From Herbaspirillum sp. AP02 (GTDB taxonomy: Bacteria > Pseudomonadota > Gammaproteobacteria > Burkholderiales > Burkholderiaceae_D): a stretch of DNA of 64,000 bases. The number at the start of each line of letters is the position of its first letter. Position 1 is the first letter of the stretch. A program made the translations under genes and the position numbers. The stretch is taken from assembly GCF_015767275.1 (NCBI RefSeq), contig NZ_JADWMY010000001.1:620001-684000 (forward strand), in the 5' to 3' direction. The notes under the pieces are model-generated. The model did not search any database, had not been told where the DNA came from, and was given only the letters and a program-made list of their open reading frames with translations. This document shows positions 5,153 to 41,866 of the stretch, piece by piece.

Positions 5153-6517
5153 TCAAGCGACAAACACCTGCCACACCAGCCACACATTGGCGGCCGAAAT
5201 CGCCACGAACAGCAGCCACGCCGTGGCACTGACCCACCAGCGGTTGACCAGCTCGCCCATCAGGTCGGCACGGCTGGTCAGGCGGATCAGCGGGTACATG
5301 GCAAAGGGCAACTGCAGCGACAGCACCACCTGGCTGGCCACCAGCAGCTTGCCCACCGAATGCGGCCCCAGGGTAAGCACGCCGATCAGCGCCGGCACCA
5401 GCGCCAGGGCGCGGGTGATGACGCGGCGCTGCCAGCAGGGAATCTTCAGCTTTAGGAAGCCTTCCATGATGACCTGGCCAGCAATGGTGCCGGTGAAGGT
5501 CGAGCTCTGGCCAGACGCGAACAGGCCCACGCCGAACAGGATGGCCGCCATGGCCGAGCCGGTGATGGGGTCCAGCAGATGGTAGGCCTCATCCAGCTCG
5601 GCGACCTGGGTATTGCCGCTCTTGTGGAAGGCGGTGGCGGCCAGGATCAGGATGGTGGCGTTGATGACCATGGCGATCAGCAACGAGATCGTGGTATCGA
5701 CCCGGGTGTAGCGCACCGCTTCCAGCAGGGAGGCCGGATCGCGCCGCACGCTGCGGGTCTGCACGATGGAAGAATGCAGGTAGAGATTGTGCGGCATCAC
5801 GGTGGCGCCGATGATGCCGATGGCCAGATACAGCGGCTCGCGGCTGGAGATGGCCTGCAGCGAGGGGACGAAGCCTTGCATCACTTCGTGCCAGTCGGCC
5901 TTGACGAAGGCCAGTTGTGCCAGCAGGCAGGTGGCGATCGTGACGACCAGTCCGAGGATGATGGCCTCGACCTGGCGGAAGCCCCTGCCCTTCAGTCCAA
6001 GCACGATCAGGGTATCGAGCGCGGTCAGCAGCACGCCCACCGGCAGCGATACGCCCAGCAGCAGGTTGAAGGCCAGTGCGCAGCCCAGCACTTCGGCCAG
6101 GTCGCAGGCGATGATGGAGAGTTCGGCCAGCACCCACATGCCCTTGCCCACGGCGGGCGGGTAGTGTTCGCGCGAATGCACCGCCAAATCCTTGCCGGTG
6201 GCGATGCCCAGGCGTGCGCACAGGCATTGCAGCACGATGGCGGCCAGGCTGGAGAGCATCACCACGAACAGCAGCTGGTAGCCGAACTGTGAACCGGCCT
6301 GGATGGAGGTGGCCCAGTTGCCCGGGTCCATGTAGCCGATCGACACCAGCAGGCCGGGGCCGACGTAGATGCGCAGCTTTTGCCAGACCGAGGCACCGGC
6401 CGGCACAGCGACCGAGCCCGCCACTTCGGACGGGCAGAATGGCGCGGTGGCCGTGGTCGGCAGACCGGGAATGCGCGGCATGCGTGGTAAACGTGGAAAT
6501 TGAAACTTCAGTGGCAA
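5153..6517 (-). CDS. mntH: NRAMP-family proton-coupled manganese/divalent metal transporter
   Basis: 454 residues with about 11 membrane helices. The TM1 metal-binding motif D64-P-G-N67 and the TM6 motif M241-P-H-N are both present, which is diagnostic of NRAMP/MntH importers of Mn(II) and Fe(II). The start is TTG: a strong AGGGGGA purine tract lies about 8 bases upstream of it, and no ATG is better placed (the first in-frame ATG is at 6481). It follows moaE by 66 bases on the same strand, so it may be read from the moaE transcript or from a promoter in that gap. I could not identify an MntR or Fur site. Confidence 0.95.
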   Translation of the reverse strand: MPLKFQFPRLPRMPRIPGLPTTATAPFCPSEVAGSVAVPAGASVWQKLRIYVGPGLLVSIGYMDPGNWATSIQAGSQFGYQLLFVVMLSSLAAIVLQCLCARLGIATGKDLAVHSREHYPPAVGKGMWVLAELSIIACDLAEVLGCALAFNLLLGVSLPVGVLLTALDTLIVLGLKGRGFRQVEAIILGLVVTIATCLLAQLAFVKADWHEVMQGFVPSLQAISSREPLYLAIGIIGATVMPHNLYLHSSIVQTRSVRRDPASLLEAVRYTRVDTTISLLIAMVINATILILAATAFHKSGNTQVAELDEAYHLLDPITGSAMAAILFGVGLFASGQSSTFTGTIAGQVIMEGFLKLKIPCWQRRVITRALALVPALIGVLTLGPHSVGKLLVASQVVLSLQLPFAMYPLIRLTSRADLMGELVNRWWVSATAWLLFVAISAANVWLVWQVFVA

Positions 6518-6583
6518 GACGGTTTCCCCCTGTGATCGCCCTTGGCGGCCGGCGCCGGGATCAAGCTCCCGAGGCAGGACGCC

Positions 6584-7036
6584 TTATTGTTTCCACTTGG
6601 TCAGCGCAGTGTCGTCGCTCTCGCGGGCATCAACCCAGCGGGCGCCGTCCGGCGTCTGTTCCTTCTTCCAGAACGGCGCCTGGGTCTTGAGGTAATCCAT
6701 GATGAATTCGCAGGCCGCGAAGGCTTCGCCGCGATGGGGCGAGGTGACCGCCACCAGCACGATCTGCTCCAACGGCTGCATGGGGCCGATGCGATGGATC
6801 ACCAGCGCATCGAAGATGGGCCAGCGCGCCTTGGCCTGTTCCACGATCTGCTCGAGGGCGCGCTCGGTCATGACCGGATAGTGTTCCAGCTCCATGGCCG
6901 AGACGGCCGCGCCCTCATTGAGATCTCGCACCGTGCCCACGAAGCTCACCACCGCCCCTACGCGGGGATTGGACAGGCGCAGTTGCGCCACTTCGGTGGA
7001 AAGATCGAAATCGGCGGTCTGGACGCGGACAGGCAT
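6584..7036 (-). CDS. moaE: Molybdopterin synthase catalytic (large) subunit
   Basis: 150 residues, the normal MoaE length. It has the conserved G-T-V-R-D-x-N segment (34-40), the H81-R-I-G motif, and lysines K117 and K124 that match the active-site lysines of E. coli MoaE. The enzyme transfers sulfur from the MoaD C-terminal thiocarboxylate to cyclic pyranopterin monophosphate. Its partner moaD lies 2.2 kb away, separated by gntP and a methyltransferase gene, whereas moaD and moaE are usually adjacent. A hairpin between gntP and moaE suggests moaE has its own promoter. Confidence 0.95.
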   Translation of the reverse strand: MPVRVQTADFDLSTEVAQLRLSNPRVGAVVSFVGTVRDLNEGAAVSAMELEHYPVMTERALEQIVEQAKARWPIFDALVIHRIGPMQPLEQIVLVAVTSPHRGEAFAACEFIMDYLKTQAPFWKKEQTPDGARWVDARESDDTALTKWKQ

Positions 7037-7055
7037 GGCTGGACGGAAAGTGAAA

Positions 7056-7089
7056 GGCAGGGCTGCGATTCTACCAGCGCAGCCCTGCC
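7056..7089 (-). terminator. Probable terminator after gntP
   Basis: A perfect 12-bp inverted repeat (7056-7067 with 7078-7089) with a 10-base loop. Read on the minus strand it is followed by TTTCACTTT, a weak U-run. It lies between the gntP stop and the moaE start. Confidence 0.6.
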
Positions 7090-7113
7090 CGCGAGCACGC
7101 GTCGATCAGACGA

Positions 7114-8484
7114 TCAGACGATCAGCCCCCACAGCAGCAGCGTCATGCCCAGCCCGATCACCGAGACCAGGGTCTGGATCACCGACCAGGTCGCCAGGGT
7201 CTGCTTGAGGTTCAGGCCGAAGTATTCCTTGACCATCCAGAAGCCGGCGTCATTGACGTGGCAGAAGAACACCGAGCCGGCACCGATGGCCAGGGCCATC
7301 AGCGAATTGTGGGTCGCCGACAGGCCCGCCACCAACGGCGCGACGATGCCGGCGGTGGCGGTGGTGGCGACGGTAGCCGAACCGGTGGCCTGGCGCAGTG
7401 CCACGGCGATGATCCAGGCCAGGAGGATGAGCGGCATGTGGGTGCCGGTGGCGATCTTGGTGATGGTGTCGCTGATGCCGGCGGCCAGCAGGGTCTGCTT
7501 GAGGCCGCCGCCAGCGCCGATGGTCAGCAGCAGGCCAGCGATGGGCGGCAAGGCGCGGCGCAGCGTGGCACCCACCTCGAAGCGGCTGCTGCCCTGGCCC
7601 CAGCCCAGCACCACCACGGCAAACAGCACCGTGACGGTGAGTGCGATGATGGGTTCGCCGAAGAAGTTGAGCATCTCGAACAGCTCGGTCTTGGGGGTGA
7701 CCCAGATGCGCGCCACGGTACGGCCCAGCATCAACGCCACCGGCAGCAGGATGGTCACCAGCGAGGCGACGAAGCCCGGCTGCGACTGGCCTTCACGGGC
7801 GCTGAAGAGCTTGCCGATCTGGTCCGGTTCGGCCAGGTTCAGGCGCGGTGCCAGGAAGTTGCCATACAGCGGTCCAGCAATGATGACCGCCGGAATGGCG
7901 ACGATGAAACCCAGCAGCATGGTGGTGCCGAGGTCGGCATGCAGGGCCGACACGGCAATCAAGGGGCCGGGGTGCGGCGGCAAGAGCGCGTGCAGCGTGG
8001 TCATGCCGGCCAATGCGGGAATGGCCACGCGCATGATGGGCAACTGCGAACGGCGTGCCATGACGAAAATGATCGGCGCCATCATCACCAGCCCGACCTC
8101 GAAGAACAGCGGCAGGCCGACCACCAGGGCCACCAGTGCCATCATCCAGGGAATGATGCTGCCACGCGCGTAGCGCAGCAGGGTATTGACGATGCGGTCG
8201 GCCGCGCCGGACTCGGCCATGAGCGCGCCCAGCATGGCGCCCAGGGCGATGATGATGCCGGCCTCGCCCAACAGGCTACCGGCACCCTTGCTGAAGGCCT
8301 TGGCAATCTCTTCCAGCGGCAGGCCGGCGCCGATGCCGGCGATGAAGGTGCCGATGAGGATGGACAGGAAGGGTGCGATAGATAGAAAGCTGATCAGCAC
8401 CACGATGGCGATCAATGCCGCCAGCGTGACCAGCAGCAACTGCGTGTCCTGGGCCGCCCAGGCGGCCAGATGGGTCGAAATCAA
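7114..8484 (-). CDS. GntP-family gluconate:proton symporter
   Basis: 456 residues, strongly hydrophobic with about 12 or more helices. GntP-family signatures include G-A-G-x-G-L-K-Q (about residues 327-334), H-V-N-D-A-G-F-W in the C-terminal part and the P-P-H-P-G-P segment. GntT/GntP proteins import gluconate or related aldonates. No gluconate kinase or Entner-Doudoroff gene is nearby, so the substrate is uncertain (GntP members also carry fructuronate, idonate or glycerate). It interrupts the moaD-moaE pair. A triple GATCAG repeat covers the stop codon region (7103-7123) and is probably chance. Confidence 0.88.
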   Translation of the reverse strand: MISTHLAAWAAQDTQLLLVTLAALIAIVVLISFLSIAPFLSILIGTFIAGIGAGLPLEEIAKAFSKGAGSLLGEAGIIIALGAMLGALMAESGAADRIVNTLLRYARGSIIPWMMALVALVVGLPLFFEVGLVMMAPIIFVMARRSQLPIMRVAIPALAGMTTLHALLPPHPGPLIAVSALHADLGTTMLLGFIVAIPAVIIAGPLYGNFLAPRLNLAEPDQIGKLFSAREGQSQPGFVASLVTILLPVALMLGRTVARIWVTPKTELFEMLNFFGEPIIALTVTVLFAVVVLGWGQGSSRFEVGATLRRALPPIAGLLLTIGAGGGLKQTLLAAGISDTITKIATGTHMPLILLAWIIAVALRQATGSATVATTATAGIVAPLVAGLSATHNSLMALAIGAGSVFFCHVNDAGFWMVKEYFGLNLKQTLATWSVIQTLVSVIGLGMTLLLWGLIV

Positions 8485-32544: not shown

Positions 32545-33204
32545 ATGCTCAAACTGACCGCGCGCCAGGAACAGATCCTGAACCTGATCAAGAACGCCAT
32601 CGAGAACACCGGCTTCCCTCCCACGCGCGCCGAAATCGCTGCCGAGCTGGGCTTTCGCTCCGCCAACGCGGCTGAAGAGCATCTGCAGGCGCTGGCCCGC
32701 AAGGGTGCCATCGAGATTTCCCCCGGCACCTCGCGCGGCATCCGTCTGCGCGAATCAGGCGCCACCCCCTCGGGCAGCATCGCCCGCCAGATGGCCCTGC
32801 CCCACCCGGCCCTGATGCAACTGAGCCTGCCCCTGATCGGTCGCGTGGCCGCCGGCTCCCCCATCCTGGCACAGGAACATGTCGAAAAGACATACCAGCT
32901 TGATCCGGCGATGTTCCCGAGCAAGCCCGATTACCTGTTGAAGGTACGCGGCATGTCCATGCGCGACGCTGGCATTCTCGATGGTGACCTGCTGGCCGTA
33001 CGCAAGACCGACCAGGCGCGCAACGGCCAGATCGTGGTGGCGCGGCTGGCCGACGAGGTCACCGTCAAGCGCTACCAGAAAGCTGGCTCGGTCATCACCC
33101 TCTTCCCCGAGAACCCGGAATTCGACCCCATCATCGTCAAGCCCGACGCCGACGAGTTTGCCCTCGAAGGACTTGCAGTCGGCCTGCTGCGCAGCTGGAA
33201 CTGA
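32545..33204 (+). CDS. lexA: LexA repressor
   Basis: 219 residues. N-terminal winged HTH (1-70), then the self-cleavage site A103-G104 in V-A-A-G-S-P and the catalytic dyad S138 (G-M-S-M) and K175 (T-V-K-R-Y). LexA represses SOS genes and is cleaved when RecA is activated by DNA damage. Two SOS boxes lie directly upstream of its start. A strong terminator follows, so it is monocistronic. Confidence 0.98.
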
Positions 33205-33268
33205 ACCAGTAGGCAGCACGACCGCCCCCCCCATTGCATCGGCGCCACCGCCCGCGCCGCTCCATTCC

Positions 33269-33299
33269 AAAAAACCTTCGCCTAAAACGAAGGTTTTTT
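33269..33299 (+). terminator. Rho-independent terminator after lexA
   Basis: A perfect 12-bp stem AAAAAACCTTCG (33269-33280) with CGAAGGTTTTTT (33288-33299), 7-base loop. Confidence 0.93.
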
Positions 33300-33402
33300 G
33301 CGTTCTATTCGCCTCTTCGGCATTCCGTCCTTGCGCATATTATTTCTACTGGATAGCCATGTCCGGCGCAAAGCATGCGCCCAACCAAGAGGACCCCTTT
33401 CG

Positions 33403-35376
33403 ATGTCGACGCGCAAGAGCAACAACAAGCACGGTAACCAGGCCCAGGCCGCCGCCAAGTCCAATCTGCAAGACCTGCTGGATGTCCGTAAATGCCTGGA
33501 TCTCCTGGACAATCGCAAGGTCGATGAAGCCAAGGCGCTCTGCAGTGCGGTCCTGGCACGCGTTCCCGACCTGGTGTTTGCCAATCATGCGCGCGGGCTT
33601 ATCGCCATGCAGGAAGGCCTTAACAAGGAAGCTGAACTGTACTTGCGCAAGGCCATTGCGGCTGACCCGGACAATGCCGAATACCTGAGCAATCTGGCCG
33701 CCGCGGTGCTGGCACAGGATCGGATCGACGACGCCATCGCCCTCTATGAGCGCGCAATCTCGGTCGACAAGGAAAGCAGGACGGCCCGCGTCGGCCTGGC
33801 CAACGCCCTGCACGAGAAAAACGATCCGGAAGCCTCGATTGCCTATTTCGAAGACGCCGCCAGACGTGAGCCCGAGGCAGCCGGCCCGCTCTCCCACCTT
33901 GGTCGCGCCCTGGTCGAGGCACGCCGTTATGACGAGGCAGTGGCCACCATTCTCAAGTCGCTGGAACTGCAGATCAGCTTTGCGCCCTCGCACACGGCGC
34001 TCGGAGAGGCCTTCCACGCCATGGAGATGTACAAGGAAGCGCTGGAGTCGCATAAAACGGCCATCCTGCTGGACCCCGAAGACACCTACGCGCACTACAA
34101 GATTGCTGATACGTATTTGAAACTGCACAAGATTACAGAAGCCCATGAGCATCTCCAGCGTGTCATCGACATCGCGCCAAAGGATCCCAACAGCTATCTC
34201 AAGCTGGGTGCCAGCTACTTCTCCGCCGAAGATCGCTTCGACGATGCCATGCGCATGTTCAACAAGGCGCTGGAACTGAACCCCAAACAGGCCCTGACTT
34301 ACAACAACATCGGCGCCATCAAGCACGATCATGGCGACACGCATGAGGCCGTGGAAATCTTCCGCAAGGCGCTCGAATTGCGCCCCAACTACTCCACCGC
34401 CAAACATAACCTGGCCTTGAGCTTGCTGCTGCATGGCGATCTCAAGGAAGGCTGGGAGTGTCATGAGAGTCGCCTGGAAACCCGCGAGCGCGCCTATGTC
34501 TACAAGCTCATCCACAAACTGTTCGAGATCATTCCCAAGTGGGATGGCAAGAGTTCACTGGAAGGCAAATTCGTGCTGCTGATGCACGAACAGGGCTTCG
34601 GCGACAGCATCCAATTCCTGCGCTATGCGCGCCTGGTCATGGACCGCGGCGCGCGGGTAGCGGTACACGTGAAGAATCCGCTGTATCGGCTGTTCCAGTC
34701 ATTTACTCCTGAAGTCACCCTGATCCGGGAAAGCGACCCGCTGCCGCCCTGCGACTGCGCATACGTGATGATGAGTCTGCCCTATGCACTGGGCACTGAT
34801 ACCGTGGAGGACATCCCTTCCTTCCCGAGCTACCTGGCGGCCGATCCGCTGCTGGCAGAAGACTGGCGCCAGAAAATTGCCGCCCTGACAACATCGGAGC
34901 AACATCTGCGGGTGGGTGTGGTGTGGGGCGGCAATCCGGAGCACGGCAACGATCGGCACCGTTCGATTCCCCTGGAGACCTTCAAGCAATTGTTCGGACT
35001 TCCGAAGATCGAGTTCTACTCCTTGCAAAAGGGCAAGCCACTGGAAGACCTGAAAAACCTGCCTGAGGACCGGACTGCGCACAATCTGGGCGACCAGTGT
35101 GCAGACTTTGCCGATACCGCCGCTGCCATCCACAACCTGGATCTGGTCATCAGCGTGGACACATCGGTGGTGCACCTGGCCGGTGCCATGGGCCATCCCA
35201 CCTGGGTACTGCTGCCGCACATCCCCGACTGGCGCTGGCTGCAAGACCGCGACGACTCGCCCTGGTACCCGAGCATGCGCCTGTTCCGCCAACCGACCTT
35301 CAGCGACTGGGACTCAGTGATGAAGCGCGTCGCCGAGGAATTAATCAGATTGCAACAAAAAAAGACGCAGCAATAG
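33403..35376 (+). CDS. TPR-repeat glycosyltransferase, candidate flagellin glycosyltransferase (FlmG-like architecture)
   Basis: 657 residues from ATG 33403 (AAGAGGA at 33387-33393). About nine tetratricopeptide repeats cover residues 56-340. The C-terminal 270 residues (387-657) form a GT-B type domain of the heptosyltransferase/GT9-GT41 kind, with H-E-Q-G-F-G-D-S (395-402), V-V-W-G-G-N (506-511) and D586-T-S-V-V-H-L-A-G-A-M-G. There is no signal peptide, so it is cytoplasmic. The TPR plus GT layout equals that of FlmG of Caulobacter, which binds flagellin through its TPRs and glycosylates it. The next gene is flagellin fliC, after a terminator. The substrate is inferred only from this. Confidence 0.85.
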   Translation: MSTRKSNNKHGNQAQAAAKSNLQDLLDVRKCLDLLDNRKVDEAKALCSAVLARVPDLVFANHARGLIAMQEGLNKEAELYLRKAIAADPDNAEYLSNLAAAVLAQDRIDDAIALYERAISVDKESRTARVGLANALHEKNDPEASIAYFEDAARREPEAAGPLSHLGRALVEARRYDEAVATILKSLELQISFAPSHTALGEAFHAMEMYKEALESHKTAILLDPEDTYAHYKIADTYLKLHKITEAHEHLQRVIDIAPKDPNSYLKLGASYFSAEDRFDDAMRMFNKALELNPKQALTYNNIGAIKHDHGDTHEAVEIFRKALELRPNYSTAKHNLALSLLLHGDLKEGWECHESRLETRERAYVYKLIHKLFEIIPKWDGKSSLEGKFVLLMHEQGFGDSIQFLRYARLVMDRGARVAVHVKNPLYRLFQSFTPEVTLIRESDPLPPCDCAYVMMSLPYALGTDTVEDIPSFPSYLAADPLLAEDWRQKIAALTTSEQHLRVGVVWGGNPEHGNDRHRSIPLETFKQLFGLPKIEFYSLQKGKPLEDLKNLPEDRTAHNLGDQCADFADTAAAIHNLDLVISVDTSVVHLAGAMGHPTWVLLPHIPDWRWLQDRDDSPWYPSMRLFRQPTFSDWDSVMKRVAEELIRLQQKKTQQ

Positions 35377-35402
35377 GCGTTCGTCCACGCGCACCTCTCT
35401 CC

Positions 35403-35430
35403 AAAGCCGCTCACACCAAGCGGCTTTTTT
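35403..35430 (+). terminator. Rho-independent terminator after the TPR-glycosyltransferase gene
   Basis: A 9-bp stem (AAAGCCGCT 35403-35411 with AGCGGCTTT 35419-35427), 7-base loop, and TTTTTT. Confidence 0.88.
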
Positions 35431-35469
35431 CATTGGGACGAAAATTTCTCGGTTTCAACAAAATTTCGC

Positions 35470-35496
35470 TAAAGTTTTCCTGATCGGCGTCGAAAA
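35470..35496 (+). promoter_or_regulatory. Candidate upstream sigma-28 promoter of fliC
   Basis: TAAAGTTT (35470-35477, exact consensus -35), 11-base spacer, GTCGAAAA (35489-35496, 6 of 8 to GCCGATAA). Weaker -10 than the downstream copy. Confidence 0.45.
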
Positions 35497-35571
35497 AGGA
35501 TTTGCTTGCAGTTTCAAAGCACGCAGTTTTAGTTCGGAAAGCCTTGAAAGAGATTTTTTTCGCGAAAGCCC

Positions 35572-35598
35572 TAAACTTTTTCCAAGACTGCCCGATAA
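35572..35598 (+). promoter_or_regulatory. Sigma-28 (FliA) promoter of fliC
   Basis: TAAACTTT (35572-35579), 11-base spacer, CCCGATAA (35591-35598). Each hexamer-octamer differs from TAAAGTTT and GCCGATAA by one base, and spacing is exact. Confidence 0.85.
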
Positions 35599-35698
35599 AG
35601 CAATCAACAGAGGTTGAAACGCCTGGGGCTCATGGGTAGAAGACCAAAGTTAAGCACTGAAACTCGGATCATCGGTCTCAAATCTTAGGAGAATTAAC

Positions 35699-36787
35699 AT
35701 GGCATCAGTCATCAATACCAACATTCCGTCGCTGAACACGCAACGAAATCTGAATTCGTCGCAGGCGTCGCTGAACACCTCGATCCAACGTCTGTCGTCC
35801 GGCCTGCGCGTCAACAGCGCAAAGGACGACGCCGCCGGCCTGGCCATCGCCGACCGCATGAACTCCCAGATCAAGGGTCTGGCAGTTGCACAACGTAACG
35901 CCAACGACGGCATCTCGATGGCTCAGACCGCTGAAGGCGCTCTGTCCACCGTGACCGACAACCTGCAGCGTATGCGTGAACTGGCTGTTCAGGCTGCCAA
36001 CGGCACCAACAGCGCACAAGACCGCAAGACCCTGAACGACGAATACAAGCAACTGTCCAGCGAAGTCTTCCGCGTGCTGAACGGCACCAGCTTCAACGGT
36101 CAGAACCTGTTCACCGGCGCCGGTCAAGGCGCATCGGCTGGCGTCGGCTCCAGCTCGGCCAACGTTTCGGCTTCCCTGACCCTGTCGTTCCAGGTCGGCG
36201 CCAACGTCCAGGACAACAAGCTGAACGATCAGATCACCATCACCCTGGATGACCTGTCGAACAACAAGACCGTCGCCGACGTCATCGGTACCAGCGCCAA
36301 GGGCCTGATCGGTCTCGGCGACACCTCCGGCGTGAGCACTGCTCAAACCACCTACACCTCGGCCAAGGCCAAGCTGGACAACCTGTTCGCTACCGGCTCG
36401 ACCCTGAGCGCCAGCGCCCTGGCATCTTCCGCAGTGACCCTGCAGAAGGCCGTGGACAGCGCCAAACTGTCCCTGGACAAGGCTGTTGCCGCTCCGTCGG
36501 CACAAAGCGATGCACAGAAGGCAATCACCAACCTGGACAAGGCCATCAGCCTGATCTCGTCCAAGCGTGCAGAATTCGGTGCCGTTCAGAACCGCTTCAG
36601 CGCCGTCATCAGCAACCTGCAAGTGTCGAGCGAGAACATCACCGCGTCCCGCAGCCGTATCATGGACACCGACTACGCTGCAGAAACTGCAAACCTGACC
36701 CGTGCGCAGATCCTGCAACAGGCTGGTAACGCGATGCTGTCGCAGGCCAACTCGGCACCGCAGCAAGTCCTGTCGCTGTTGAAATAA
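35699..36787 (+). CDS. fliC: Flagellin
   Basis: 362 residues. Conserved D0/D1 regions at both ends (M-A-S-V-I-N-T-N at the start; N-L-T-R-A-Q-I-L-Q-Q-A-G and Q-V-L-S-L-L-K at the end) surround a short variable region (about 140-270). L89-Q-R-M-R-E-L95 matches the TLR5 contact site, and residues 30-51 are the flg22 equivalent. The central part is rich in Ser/Thr, possible O-glycosylation sites for the neighbouring TPR-glycosyltransferase. Exported by the flagellar apparatus with FliS as chaperone. Driven by a sigma-28 promoter; only one flagellin gene is in the window. Confidence 0.98.
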   Translation: MASVINTNIPSLNTQRNLNSSQASLNTSIQRLSSGLRVNSAKDDAAGLAIADRMNSQIKGLAVAQRNANDGISMAQTAEGALSTVTDNLQRMRELAVQAANGTNSAQDRKTLNDEYKQLSSEVFRVLNGTSFNGQNLFTGAGQGASAGVGSSSANVSASLTLSFQVGANVQDNKLNDQITITLDDLSNNKTVADVIGTSAKGLIGLGDTSGVSTAQTTYTSAKAKLDNLFATGSTLSASALASSAVTLQKAVDSAKLSLDKAVAAPSAQSDAQKAITNLDKAISLISSKRAEFGAVQNRFSAVISNLQVSSENITASRSRIMDTDYAAETANLTRAQILQQAGNAMLSQANSAPQQVLSLLK

Positions 36788-36865: not shown

Positions 36866-37225
36866 ATGTCGATTGCCCCACTTAATATCACAGCTGCTGG
36901 CGATTCCGGTACGGCGTATGCCTTGCCGCAAAGCGCTGTCAAGCCAGATCCCGTGGTATCGACCGTTGCCCCGGCAGCGACTTCGGAAGCACGGCGTGCG
37001 ACGGAAAGCGATGTCAACGATGCCGTCAGCAAACTCAATGACTTCGCGAAGACCAGCGCCTCGGCACTGAATTTCTCCAAGGACGAAGAGACTGGCCGCA
37101 CCATCGTCAAAGTCGTGGATACCGCGACCGACACCGTGATTCGCCAGATTCCCAGTGAAGAAGCGATCTCCATCGCCAAGTCCATCGACAAGATGCAAGG
37201 CCTGTTGATCAACCACAAGGTCTGA
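36866..37225 (+). CDS. flaG: FlaG family protein
   Basis: 119 residues. The C-terminal half carries the FlaG motif: A-L-N-F-S-K-D-E-E-T-G-R-T-I-V-K-V-V-D, then V-I-R-Q-I-P-S-E-E-A. FlaG is linked to filament length control in other bacteria but its mechanism is unclear. GGAAGGGAG before the ATG is a strong ribosome-binding site. It lies between fliC and fliD, its usual place. Confidence 0.92.
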   Translation: MSIAPLNITAAGDSGTAYALPQSAVKPDPVVSTVAPAATSEARRATESDVNDAVSKLNDFAKTSASALNFSKDEETGRTIVKVVDTATDTVIRQIPSEEAISIAKSIDKMQGLLINHKV

Positions 37226-37455
37226 ATTGAACTTGAGTCTGGTACGAACTGCAGTGGCTCGAAAGACCGCGTGCGCCCATGTTCACTCATGGCGCATGAC
37301 GGGTTCGGCTACCCCAGTTCATAATGGATTCGCATAACACCCGCACAGCGTCCCTCCTGCACCGACGCCGTACTTGAGAGCCACTCTCCTCTTGACCGCG
37401 CGCGCAGCTCCCCCCTAAAGCGCTGTGCCTTACGCAAAGATTCAGGAGTTGAACC

Positions 37456-39525
37456 ATGGCCACTTCCACCGGCACTATCTCCACCTCGGCAGGTCCACTT
37501 GACGTCGCGACCCTGGTCAGCCAGTTGATCTCCGCGGAGAGCCAATCCCAGCTGACTCCGCTGACCACCCAGGCCAGCAGCTACAACACCCTGATCTCCG
37601 CGTACGGCAGCCTCAAGAGCGCGCTATCGACTTATCAGTCGGCCATCAAGGGCATGAGTGCAGCCAGCTTCAGCTCCCAGAAAAGCAGTGTCAGCAACGC
37701 CGGCACCGGCAGCAGTCTGACCACCGATCCGTTCACCGCCGACATCAACAGCGACGACTCGACCAAGATCCTGGCGCAGAAGATCAAGTCCGAGGGCGTC
37801 GCCAGCGGCACCACCTTCAGCGCCGGAGACTCGCTGGCCATCAAGATCGGTACCAACTCGCCCACGTTCATCACGCTCAAGGCAAACTCCACCCTGGCAG
37901 GTGTGCGCGACGCCATCAATGCCTCCAAGGCGGGGGTAAGCGCATCCATCGTCACCGATGGCAGCGGTGATCACCTGGTGCTGGAATCAAACACCGGCGG
38001 CACCGCCAATACCATCAAGGTCACGGCCAACAACAGCCTGTCCCGCTTCGCCTACGATCCATCGAGTTCAACACCCAGCACCACGACCCAGATCCAGGCG
38101 CCGCGCGATGCCACCAAGGCCGCCTCGGGCACCTATTCGGTCGGCGTGACGCAACTGGCGCAGACCGCCAAGCTAAGCTCGGCCAGCATTACCCCGGGCA
38201 GCACCTTCGAAAACGGCTTGCTGGCGATCAAGACCGGCACCGGTTCGACCACCATCATCAAGCCAACCACCAACAGCCTGGCAGGCGTGCGCGATGCCAT
38301 CAACAGCAGCGATGCCGGCGTGAATGCCACCATCGTCAGCGACGGCACCAACGATCACCTGGTACTCACCGCCAAGGACAGCGGTGCCACCAATACCATC
38401 AAGGTCACCGGCACGTCGGACTTTGCAGTATTCAATTCGGACCCGAGCGGTACGGTCACCACCCCCAATGTCGGCAACAGCCAGCTCTTTACCACCGGCT
38501 CGCTGAACCTGAAAGTGGGTGACAGCACCATCGCCATCAACCCGACGGCCAATGGCAGCGGCGACATCGACCTGACTCAGGTCATGACCGCGATCAATGG
38601 CGCGGCCGCTGGCGTGACCGCCTCGATCACCAACGATGGCACCAATAGCCGCCTGGTGCTGACACCCAACGCCGCGAACGCCACGGCTGCCATCTCCCTC
38701 GCCGGTAGCGGGGATTATTCGGGCCTCACCGCCAGCGGCATGGGCCAGTTGCTCAAGGCGCAGGACGCCAAACTGTCCATCGACGGCGTGACCGTCACCA
38801 GCCCCAGCAACAAGGTGGAAAACGTGATTTCAGGCGTAACCCTGAACCTCTCCAAGGTCACCACCTCGGCTGACGATTTCACACTCAATATCAGCAATGA
38901 CACCACCGGCCTGACCAGCGCGGCCAACACCTTCGTCTCTGCCTATAACACCCTGGCCAAGGCGATCGCCAGCATGACCGCGCAGACACCCTCGACCACG
39001 CTGGGCCAGGCCAACACCTCGGCGCCACTGGCCAGCGAATCGTCGGTCCAGACCATCATGACCCAGTTGCGCAACACCCTGTTCTCCTCGGTGGATGGTG
39101 GCAACGGCATCAACACGCTGTCCGACATCGGCATCGGGTTCCAGAAGGACGGCACGCTGGCACTGGACGCCACCAAGCTGTCGACCGCGGCCACCAACAA
39201 TTTCGCCGGCATCGCCAACCTGTTCGCCGGCACTGATCCGGATACCACCAACACCACCTCCTCCAAAAATGGTATCGTCACCAAGTTGACGACGCTGATG
39301 ACGAACCTGTTGAGTGACACCGGCATCATCGCCACCAAGACCAACGGCCTGCAAGCCAGCCTGAAGATCAACCAGGATCGCCAGACTGCAGTACAGAGCC
39401 GCTTGTCCAATCTGAAAGATGCCTACACCAACCAGTTCAACCAACTCAACATCACGCTGGCCAGCATGCAGTCCACGCAGAGCTACCTGACCCAGCAATT
39501 GGCCAGTCTGGCCAAGAGCAGTTGA
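37456..39525 (+). CDS. fliD: Flagellar filament capping protein FliD (HAP2), enlarged
   Basis: 689 residues, well above the 450-500 common in enteric bacteria. FliD N-terminus (S-T-G-T-I-S, L-D-V-A-T-L-V-S-Q-L) and C-terminal coiled-coil region (Q-S-R-L-S-N-L, Y-L-T-Q-Q-L-A) are conserved. The extra length is a central block of three flagellin-IN-like repeats at about residues 121-203, 251-331 and 347-427. The first two share a longer unit including L-A-G-V-R-D-A-I-N and N-T-I-K-V-T. FliD forms the distal cap that folds flagellin at the filament tip. AGGAG precedes the ATG. Confidence 0.96.
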   Translation: MATSTGTISTSAGPLDVATLVSQLISAESQSQLTPLTTQASSYNTLISAYGSLKSALSTYQSAIKGMSAASFSSQKSSVSNAGTGSSLTTDPFTADINSDDSTKILAQKIKSEGVASGTTFSAGDSLAIKIGTNSPTFITLKANSTLAGVRDAINASKAGVSASIVTDGSGDHLVLESNTGGTANTIKVTANNSLSRFAYDPSSSTPSTTTQIQAPRDATKAASGTYSVGVTQLAQTAKLSSASITPGSTFENGLLAIKTGTGSTTIIKPTTNSLAGVRDAINSSDAGVNATIVSDGTNDHLVLTAKDSGATNTIKVTGTSDFAVFNSDPSGTVTTPNVGNSQLFTTGSLNLKVGDSTIAINPTANGSGDIDLTQVMTAINGAAAGVTASITNDGTNSRLVLTPNAANATAAISLAGSGDYSGLTASGMGQLLKAQDAKLSIDGVTVTSPSNKVENVISGVTLNLSKVTTSADDFTLNISNDTTGLTSAANTFVSAYNTLAKAIASMTAQTPSTTLGQANTSAPLASESSVQTIMTQLRNTLFSSVDGGNGINTLSDIGIGFQKDGTLALDATKLSTAATNNFAGIANLFAGTDPDTTNTTSSKNGIVTKLTTLMTNLLSDTGIIATKTNGLQASLKINQDRQTAVQSRLSNLKDAYTNQFNQLNITLASMQSTQSYLTQQLASLAKSS

Positions 39526-39554
39526 GTCTGAATCCGCGAACATAGGAGAAAGTC

Positions 39555-40013
39555 ATGTTCGGAAGCATGAAACGCGGGGCCAACGCCTACGCCAATATCG
39601 GGGTGGAAACCGGCGTGGTCGCCGCCAGCCCGCACAAGCTCATCACCATGCTCTTCGATGGCGCACTGGTAGCTATTGCGCTGGCCAAGAAGTACATGGG
39701 CGAAGGCAATATCAAGGACAAGGGCGAGTCCATCACCAAGGCCATCCTGATCATCGACAATGGCCTGCGCGCGAGCCTGAACAAGGAAGTCGGCGGCGAA
39801 CTGGCATTGAACCTGGATGCGCTGTACGAGTACATGAGCCGCCGCCTGTTCGAAGCCAACACCAGCAACAATCCTGCCATTCTCGATGAGGTCCACCGGC
39901 TGCTGGATGAAATTCGTTCGGCGTGGGAACAGATCGGGCCCAACGCCGCACAGTCCACACCGCAGATGGCCATTGTTCCGGATCATTCCCAACCCAGCTT
40001 CGCAAAGGCCTGA
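39555..40013 (+). CDS. fliS: Flagellin export chaperone FliS
   Basis: 152 residues, helical. The FliS N-terminus Y-A-N-I-G-V-E-T-G-V-V-A-A-S-P-H-K-L-I-T-M-L-F is conserved in pattern (Y then a P-H-K-L-I-x-M-L-F/Y segment). It binds the flagellin C-terminus in the cytoplasm and prevents premature polymerisation. Located 29 bases after fliD and 5 bases before fliT, an operon. Confidence 0.96.
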   Translation: MFGSMKRGANAYANIGVETGVVAASPHKLITMLFDGALVAIALAKKYMGEGNIKDKGESITKAILIIDNGLRASLNKEVGGELALNLDALYEYMSRRLFEANTSNNPAILDEVHRLLDEIRSAWEQIGPNAAQSTPQMAIVPDHSQPSFAKA

Positions 40014-40350: not shown

Positions 40351-41535
40351 ATGCTGCCGCGGGCCGATATTGCCAGCGCCGTCCAGCCTGTCCACGCAGT
40401 TGACGCGGCCACCGCCGTTGTTTCGGTTGCCGATACCCGACAAGAAGCGTTCAGCCGGCTGGCCCAGATCGCCATCGGCCAGCAGATGTCCGGCCGCATC
40501 CTCTCGAACTTCAGCGACGGCACTTTCCTGGTACGCATTGCCAATACGGCAGCGCGCATGGTGTTGCCCAACAATGCCAAGGTCGGCGATTCACTGATCC
40601 TCACACTGGTCTCGAAGGACCCTCGCCCTACGTTTTCCGTCAACGAAGGCAGCATTCGCACCGACGAAGACAGTGCCGCTGTCGCGCTGAGCAATGCCGG
40701 CCGCGCCATGCAGAAGGACCTGAAGTCCCTGCAATTCGTCACTCGCGACGAAAGCGGTGCGGGCCAGATCGCCCAGAACGAGGAAGTCCCGGTCGACGCC
40801 AGGGCCAAGTCCCCGGGCCAGGGCGAATCTGGCCCCCCGTCCAGCACCACCACCACGCTCAGCAATGCCGGCCGCCTCATCGGCAGCCTGCTGCACGCCT
40901 CGCAGCAAGGCGACATGGCCGATCATGTCAGTGCCCCTGCCCCGTTGCTGGCCAAGCCCAATGTCCCCACCGAACAGATGGCCGGCGCACTCAAGGACGC
41001 CATCGCCTACAGCGGTGTGTTCTACGAATCGCACGTATCGGCCTGGGCAGCCGGCCAGCGCCCGGCTGAAGAATTGATGAAGGAACCCCAAGCCCAGGTG
41101 GCGGCGCAAAAAGGCGGCGACATCAATCTGCTCAGCCAGAGCGATCCGGCCCAGAACCAGCTTGGACAGTTGATCAATCTGCAACTCAACGCCCTCGAAC
41201 AGCAGCGGGTGGTCTGGCACGGGCAAGTCTGGCCAGGGCAGCAGATGGAGTGGGAGATCAGCCGGGAGCACGACCAGCCCTCTTCCGGTGCGCACAGCGA
41301 CGAGGAAGCGGCGCCCACCTGGCACAGCGTGGTGCGCTTCAACTTCGCCCAGCTGGGTAGCGTTTCCGCTTCGATCCGCCTGATCGGGCAGCAGATCCAC
41401 GTACAAGTCAAAGCCGACAACGAAGCTGCTGCGGCGGCCCTGCGTGGTCAAAGCAGCCTGTTTGCCAACGCCATGGCAGCCGCCGGCACCTCCCTCGACT
41501 CCCTGACCGTCAAGCATGCCGATGGAGAAACCTAA
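40351..41535 (+). CDS. Second FliK-like hook-length control protein
   Basis: 394 residues. The C-terminal domain (about 290-390) has the FliK pattern W-H-S-V-V-R-F-N-F-A-Q-L-G-S-V-S-A-S-I-R-L followed by V-Q-V-K-A-D-N-E. The N-terminal two thirds are Ala/Gln/Ser-rich and disordered-looking, as in FliK. ATG 40351 begins two bases after the fliT stop. Its end overlaps the FlhB-like gene. A regular fliK (48964-50256) also exists, so this is a paralogue whose partner is probably the small FlhB-like protein. Conserved in gene order in related beta-proteobacteria as far as I recall. Confidence 0.75.
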   Translation: MLPRADIASAVQPVHAVDAATAVVSVADTRQEAFSRLAQIAIGQQMSGRILSNFSDGTFLVRIANTAARMVLPNNAKVGDSLILTLVSKDPRPTFSVNEGSIRTDEDSAAVALSNAGRAMQKDLKSLQFVTRDESGAGQIAQNEEVPVDARAKSPGQGESGPPSSTTTTLSNAGRLIGSLLHASQQGDMADHVSAPAPLLAKPNVPTEQMAGALKDAIAYSGVFYESHVSAWAAGQRPAEELMKEPQAQVAAQKGGDINLLSQSDPAQNQLGQLINLQLNALEQQRVVWHGQVWPGQQMEWEISREHDQPSSGAHSDEEAAPTWHSVVRFNFAQLGSVSASIRLIGQQIHVQVKADNEAAAAALRGQSSLFANAMAAAGTSLDSLTVKHADGET

Positions 41536-41866
41536 CATCCCCCTGCAAAATGCCGTCGCGCTGGCCTACAATGGCAGCCAGGGCGCGCCACAGGTCGTGG
41601 CCAAGGGCCGCGGCCTGGTGGCCGAAGCCATCATCGCCCGCGCCAAAGAAAGCGGCGTCTATGTTCATGAATCCAAGGAACTGGTTTCCCTGCTGATGCA
41701 GGTGGAACTGGACCAGCAGATCCCGCCTGCCCTCTACCGCACTGTGGCGGAATTGCTCGCGTGGTTATATCGTATTGAAAATATGCAATTAGGTGGGTCT
41801 GTGATGTATGATACTGCGTTAAATTATTCAAATAATTTCCCAGGGGAAAGCGAGTCCACTCGCTGA
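41522..41866 (+). CDS. Orphan FlhB C-terminal domain protein (FhlB-like export switch)
   Basis: 114 residues (ATG 41522; 41516 also possible). It aligns with the cytoplasmic FlhB tail after the autocleavage point: N-A-V-A-L-A-Y-N, A-P-Q-V-V-A-K-G-R-G-L, then I-P-P-A-L-Y-R-T-V-A-E-L-L-A-W-L-Y-R. The self-cleaving N-P-T-H is absent (the site reads P-L-Q-N), and there are no membrane helices. FlhB-like tails of this kind can partly replace the FlhB C-terminus in substrate switching. It overlaps the fliK-like gene by 14 bases. The last 20 codons are unusually AT-rich. Confidence 0.82.
   Translation: MEKPNIPLQNAVALAYNGSQGAPQVVAKGRGLVAEAIIARAKESGVYVHESKELVSLLMQVELDQQIPPALYRTVAELLAWLYRIENMQLGGSVMYDTALNYSNNFPGESESTR

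Follow-up and report, generated by a model that had tools for sequence, protein, structure and literature searches.

Which substrate does a TPR-containing glycosyltransferase serve when its gene lies directly beside a flagellin gene? The window analyzed here—the whole stretch of 64,000 nucleotides from Herbaspirillum sp. AP02—bears such a pair, in which a TPR-glycosyltransferase (TPR-GT) gene precedes fliC. For Caulobacter, the available part of one publication describes FlmG (CCNA_01524), a flagellin O-glycosyltransferase of 596 aa built from TPRs and a GT-B domain (PMC7591256), and a preliminary description of the window, made from its letters alone, had proposed an enzyme of this type. No paper on Herbaspirillum flagellin glycosylation or on the TPR-GT gene was recognized among the results of searches in an open-access library; background is provided by the available parts of two reviews (PMC3958885, PMC12645811), and the available part of an RNA-seq study on H. 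seropedicae treats flagellar genes but not flagellin glycosylation (PMC4440368).

The Herbaspirillum TPR-GT probably recognizes and glycosylates flagellin; it appears to be a counterpart of FlmG that evolved separately and uses a different kind of sugar donor. We place the probability at roughly 0.6 that it is a cytosolic, flagellin-dedicated protein O-glycosyltransferase, whose TPRs hold FliC and whose GT9-like domain adds an NDP-sugar—FlmG-like in its way of working, yet independently recruited.

Domain architecture of the TPR-GT protein

The gene and its main parts are as follows.

33403..35376, + strand: TPR-glycosyltransferase gene, an open reading frame of 657 aa
33466..34470, + strand: TPR region with nine to ten repeats (residues 22-356), by Pfam TPR matches and helices of the AlphaFold2 model
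34528..35373, + strand: GT-B domain with GT9 (heptosyltransferase) fold, residues 376-657; the model of residues 372-657 has a pLDDT of 88.4
34603..34605, + strand: Asp401 of a GxGD motif, candidate catalytic base
35152..35184, + strand: donor-site motif SVDTSVVHLAG with D586, T587, and H591

Translation from the ATG at 33403, which is preceded by AGAGGA, to the stop at 35376 yields the 657 residues; a TTG at 33298 is merely the earliest start codon in the frame. In Pfam and TIGR profile scans covering nine proteins of the window, many TPR matches fall on residues 30-350. In the AlphaFold2 model of the whole protein (mean pLDDT 82.3), residues 22-356 form nine helix pairs and a single long helix (199-223), which adjoins a stretch of low confidence; C-terminal to these repeats follows a GT-B domain of two Rossmann folds. 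No hydrophobic stretch is visible by eye at the N-terminus, MSTRKSNNKHGNQAQ. Hence, the anatomy given in the preliminary description holds: about nine TPRs fused to a GT-B domain in one protein, in the same order as in published FlmG; no evident signal peptide; and fliC as the next gene, with the flagellin at 35699-36787, 322 nt downstream on the same strand. Over 30 loci, mean pairwise identity is 0.68 in the GT part and 0.65 in the TPR part, the former thus being conserved no less than the latter.

A predicted GT9-like fold and its donor-site motif

Among the structure matches listed, the GT-domain model comes closest to the GT9 family, with a Z-score of 19.3 to 3tov (253 aligned residues, 3.1 Å; VIA-align), followed by WaaF (1psw, Z 18.7), TibC (4rap, Z 17.1), and WaaC (Z 16.2-16.7). 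UDP-GlcNAc 2-epimerases reach a Z of about 12. Chains of the chloroplast NDH complex, however, score level with WaaC (Z 15.2-16.1), so that a GT9-like fold alone is no proof of a transferase. On the sequence level, GT9 (PF01075) is the sole glycosyltransferase family of Pfam at E≤0.01, matching residues 569-600 with 17.6 bits, which stays below the curated cut-off of 22, and a PDB sequence search with the GT part returned zero matches at E≤1. The aligned GT9 chains also differ from the TPR-GT in lacking a TPR part. TibC is a protein heptosyltransferase that glycosylates protein serines.

Two other systems invite comparison. Eukaryotic OGT/SPINDLY (GT41) shares the succession of a TPR superhelix and a GT-B domain and is among the best whole-protein sequence and Foldseek matches, the whole-protein OGT structure matches having an rmsd of about 10-15 Å; with the GT domain alone, zero GT41 chains appear among the 50 structure matches listed, which excludes nothing. 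Maf flagellin glycosyltransferases have the same proposed job. The Maf family PF01973 is not among the Pfam families of the TPR-GT protein at E≤0.01, and it was found in 0/34 genomes of the genus, a search of unproven sensitivity in that bacterial control genomes also gave none.

Both GxGD and SVDTSVVHLAG resemble WaaC motifs, and we presume the roles of D401, D586, and H591 to match those of their counterparts in WaaC and GT9 enzymes; a literature search found no paper on the GT9 active site. The WaaC-like protein of the genome itself carries LGD and LDTGLTHIAAA, sharing with the TPR-GT the motifs GD and D[TS]xxxH. The preliminary description had regarded a lack of donor-binding residues as evidence against its reading; candidates for such residues are present, D401, D586, T587, and H591 being invariant in 34/34 orthologs of the protein alignment (which omits locus L037, from the same genome as L083). 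D586 and H591 are also kept in the one ortholog outside the genus, in genome G192, and in 5/5 paralogs—four from the genome itself and one from G016—which likewise keep D401.

Flagellin as a constant neighbor

The genes on either side of the TPR-GT gene are the following.

32545..33204, + strand: lexA, upstream neighbor outside the system, TIGR00498 above cut-off
35699..36787, + strand: flagellin FliC, 362 aa, the proposed acceptor, with PF00669 and PF00700

An ortholog is present in all 34 Herbaspirillum genomes examined, the genome itself included, at identities of at least 54%; named close relatives are those of H. frisingense GSF30 (93%), H. aquaticum (81%), and H. huttiense (78%). In 294 evenly sampled genomes of the family, there are 28 matches at E≤1e-110, namely 27 from Herbaspirillum and that of G192, a member of another genus (46%). 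The ortholog-level gene hence occurs in two of the 44 genera sampled, and flagellin adjoins it in both.

Within the genus, flagellin lies 285-610 bp downstream in 33/34 genomes, made up of 29/30 loci (297-603 bp) and four further genomes (285-306 bp); in the 34th the contig ends, the locus (L018) stopping 148 nt past the TPR-GT gene. This synteny alone is weak evidence, as lexA is an equally constant neighbor, found upstream in 34/34 genomes (the lexA motif in 30/30 loci, plus the four further genomes). Better evidence for a link to flagellin is the neighborhood in G192, where flagellin follows the TPR-GT ortholog at 317 bp and a LexA match is absent from both strands of a 14-kb stretch. The gene directly upstream of this ortholog encodes GT2 and DXD-sugar-binding domains, and the gene preceding that one has zero Pfam matches. 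In the same genus, no fewer than three further genomes of the sample (G080, G114, G136) bear no ortholog at E≤1e-110; hence, G192—the sole example outside Herbaspirillum—might hold a transferred block.

The alternative that weighs most here is that the TPR-GT acts on a non-flagellin target, be it another protein, a polysaccharide, or LPS, the adjacency to fliC being inherited gene order. The constancy of lexA fits this alternative, as does the wider family, in which, among the matches listed, most TPR-GTs are not near a flagellin. GT matches at E≤1e-30 occur in 39 of 89 family genomes; that a listed flagellin lies within 3 kb only in the four Herbaspirillum genomes among them speaks for a flagellin role in this genus. 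This adjacency was compared by eye, and pairs can be hidden by contig breaks; the distance is 6.3 kb in G110 and 20.5 kb in G076. Four further TPR-GT paralogs, each including a GT part, are encoded in the genome itself; they keep D401, D586, and H591.

C6:152591-154243: TPR-GT paralog of the genome itself (G000)
C8:77520-79061: TPR-GT paralog of the same genome
C8:10492-11601: TPR-GT paralog of the same genome
C1:505855-507333: TPR-GT paralog of the same genome

No flagellin match was found around these four (stretches of 12-14.5 kb), around the G016 paralog, or around a delta relative (L090). A TPR-GT hence need not act on flagellin. Against a non-flagellin target stand G192, which keeps flagellin adjacent in the absence of a lexA neighbor, and the restriction of the ortholog-level gene to two genera with flagellin beside it in both; we consider such a target unlikely, though a serious contender.

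Transcription signals

Three putative signals lie around the TPR-GT gene.

33268..33300, + strand: terminator-like hairpin in the gap between lexA and the TPR-GT gene, strict stem in 22/30 loci
35403..35427, + strand: terminator-like hairpin 3' of the TPR-GT gene and before fliC, strict stem in 13/30 loci, some of these perhaps by chance
35572..35598, + strand: sigma-28-type promoter of fliC, TAAA-N15-CCCGATAA, 11/12 matches

The terminator scan of the region gave five sites vs 2.8 (sd 1.7) in shuffles, so that the case for the hairpins comes from where they lie and from their recurrence at other loci. For fliC, a site of the form TAAA-N15-NCCGATA(A/T) is found at 28/30 loci, and a score of 11 arose in 4/900 shuffles. 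The two remaining loci are L018, which ends early, and L037, where the 460 nt searched stop before the flagellin. With a hairpin between the genes and a sigma-28-type site of its own for fliC, "next gene" is the appropriate term rather than "same operon".

The idea that the TPR-GT gene itself has a sigma-28 promoter was considered and rejected, the best scores before the gene being no better than those of mononucleotide shuffles, and no sigma-70-type promoter was found at the scan threshold within 33150-35750. The TPR-GT gene apparently forms its own transcription unit, which would also suit an enzyme serving another target, and its genetic link to fliC is one of position only. Upstream of the gene, at 33300-33360, a block resembling TTCTGTTC ... 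CATATCAT recurs over 30 aligned loci; it is possibly a housekeeping promoter.

Flagellin as the proposed acceptor

If the TPR-GT is a flagellin glycosyltransferase, its TPR superhelix would hold newly made FliC, and the GT9-like GT-B domain would put a sugar on Ser/Thr residues before export. The complete Herbaspirillum flagellins are 362-365 aa long (n=30; of the 34 genomes, three have the gene cut by the locus end and one has no flagellin in the contig). Their central residues 141-280 share 77% mean pairwise identity, and 13 of the 35 Ser/Thr in this region stay Ser/Thr in all 30. These 13 are candidate glycosylation sites, their conservation proving nothing by itself. The flagellin of G192 (L077, 7418-8245, + strand) spans only 275 aa and misses most of the central region; hence, if it is an acceptor, the sites cannot all be located there.

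The sugar donor

The preliminary description had suggested a search for sialic-acid-like or pseudaminic acid genes elsewhere in the genome. A NeuB homolog is present, and PseI remains below its cut-off (238 vs 340 bits).

L072 (G000:C7:263000-278000), 6249-8168, - strand: local NeuB homolog, 639 aa, with NeuB, SAF, and xylose-isomerase-like domains

Its cluster encodes a GHMP kinase, a DegT aminotransferase, a thiamine-diphosphate enzyme, and short-chain dehydrogenases; it is an unusual sugar locus, perhaps of the O-antigen type. Over the genus, NeuB is patchy, occurring in 19/34 genomes, this one included, and missing in 15 that keep the TPR-GT; five of the latter are single-contig and listed as 100% complete (G014, G018, G019, G024, G028). 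PseI exceeds its cut-off in 10/34. The NeuB search of the G192 genome was negative as well (0/1). With NeuB absent from so many genomes that retain the TPR-GT, a sialic-acid-like donor finds no support.

Most likely, the enzyme draws on a nucleoside-diphosphate sugar and not on a CMP-nonulosonic acid. This sugar would be one that all species can supply, for example dTDP-rhamnose, UDP-GlcNAc, or ADP-heptose. An RmlC-family epimerase is found in 34/34 genomes, making dTDP-rhamnose possible everywhere in the genus, and ADP-heptose is expected in every genome of it. A sharper version, in which the TPR-GT is a GT9 enzyme guided by its TPRs and of a second, independent origin, places heptose or another NDP-sugar on FliC as a flagellin O-heptosyltransferase, and shows its donor choice in one motif, would go further than the general proposal, and we regard it as speculative and rather improbable in full. 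FlmG also keeps D401 but carries a changed donor-site motif, so that the link from motif to donor is a deduction.

Relation to Caulobacter FlmG

The FlmG reference used here is a proxy, a 597-aa protein beside flbT-flaF and flagellins. It belongs to a set of ten stretches around FljK-like flagellins, of which seven bear a TPR-GT (the FlmG clade) and three do not (G344, G688, G470). NeuB is present in 10/10 of the tested genomes with FljK-like flagellins, including the seven with a FlmG-clade protein. The likeness to FlmG lies in the N-terminal TPRs and C-terminal GT-B domain, the length of about 600-660 aa, and the position at a flagellin locus (PMC7591256, available part); the putative way of working, in which the TPRs pick flagellin, is likely the same as well.

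The GT domains tell the two apart. Identity to the window protein is 57% for G192 and 40-47% for the five paralogs but only 27-34% for the FlmG clade and 29% for the proxy. D401 is shared by 7/7 FlmG-clade proteins, whereas D586 and H591 are missing in all seven TPR-GTs at FljK-type flagellin loci. Six generic TPR-GTs—two from Azospirillum, one each from Rhodovastum, Methylovirgula, and Paraburkholderia, and one delta—keep D[TS]xxxH, four of them being alphaproteobacterial; the changed motif hence marks the FlmG clade and not a bacterial class. In an unrooted tree with 15/34 Herbaspirillum rows, the FlmG clade (support 100/100) is separate from a clade of Herbaspirillum and G192 (100/99), within which Herbaspirillum without G192 is supported at only 82/82; long branches and the rows par_L076 and fla_L069 of odd composition were flagged. 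TPR-GTs that do not adjoin flagellin fall on the Herbaspirillum side of the tree. This arrangement fits an independent recruitment to flagellin, which probably took place from a large pool of bacterial TPR-GT proteins, although the role on flagellin may instead be ancestral, followed by losses.

What, then, of a strict FlmG ortholog, whose TPRs bind flagellin and whose GT domain uses CMP-pseudaminic or another nonulosonic acid? The published architecture (PMC7591256, available part), the flagellin-locus position in both, and the NeuB homologs in 19 genomes including this one speak for it. It is nevertheless improbable given the 15 genomes without NeuB (compared with 7/7 NeuB in FlmG-clade genomes), five of them complete, the sparse PseI, and a local NeuB fused to a xylose-isomerase-like barrel in a cluster that we read as O-antigen-type, together with a donor motif and tree place unlike those of the FlmG clade. 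Of the preliminary description, the flagellin glycosyltransferase survives as the best explanation, with the flagellin link in 33/34 genomes and in G192, whereas membership in the FlmG type is not supported. Least probable of all, and very much so, is a flagellin chaperone or regulator with a GT domain that is no longer catalytic: similarly built proteins with regulatory roles exist, GmaR being a regulator in Listeria, but the invariance of D401, D586, T587, and H591 and a GT part conserved no less than the TPRs argue against it.

If the Herbaspirillum TPR-GT is indeed an independently recruited flagellin glycosyltransferase, flagellin has become the target of the TPR-plus-GT design on at least two occasions that differ in donor class, and acceptor choice by the TPRs and donor choice by one motif of the GT domain would be separable modules. 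A TPR-GT beside fliC should hence not automatically be called FlmG, nor does the architecture imply a sialic-acid-like donor. Herbaspirillum includes plant endophytes, in which a flagellin-bound sugar may influence immune recognition.

Further flagellar genes of the window

Downstream of fliC, the flagellar genes continue.

36866..40013, + strand: flaG, fliD, and fliS, by profile scan

At 41516-41866 on the + strand, between fliK-like and YcgR-like genes, lies a gene for a 116-aa protein that corresponds to the C-terminal part of FlhB only (PF01312).
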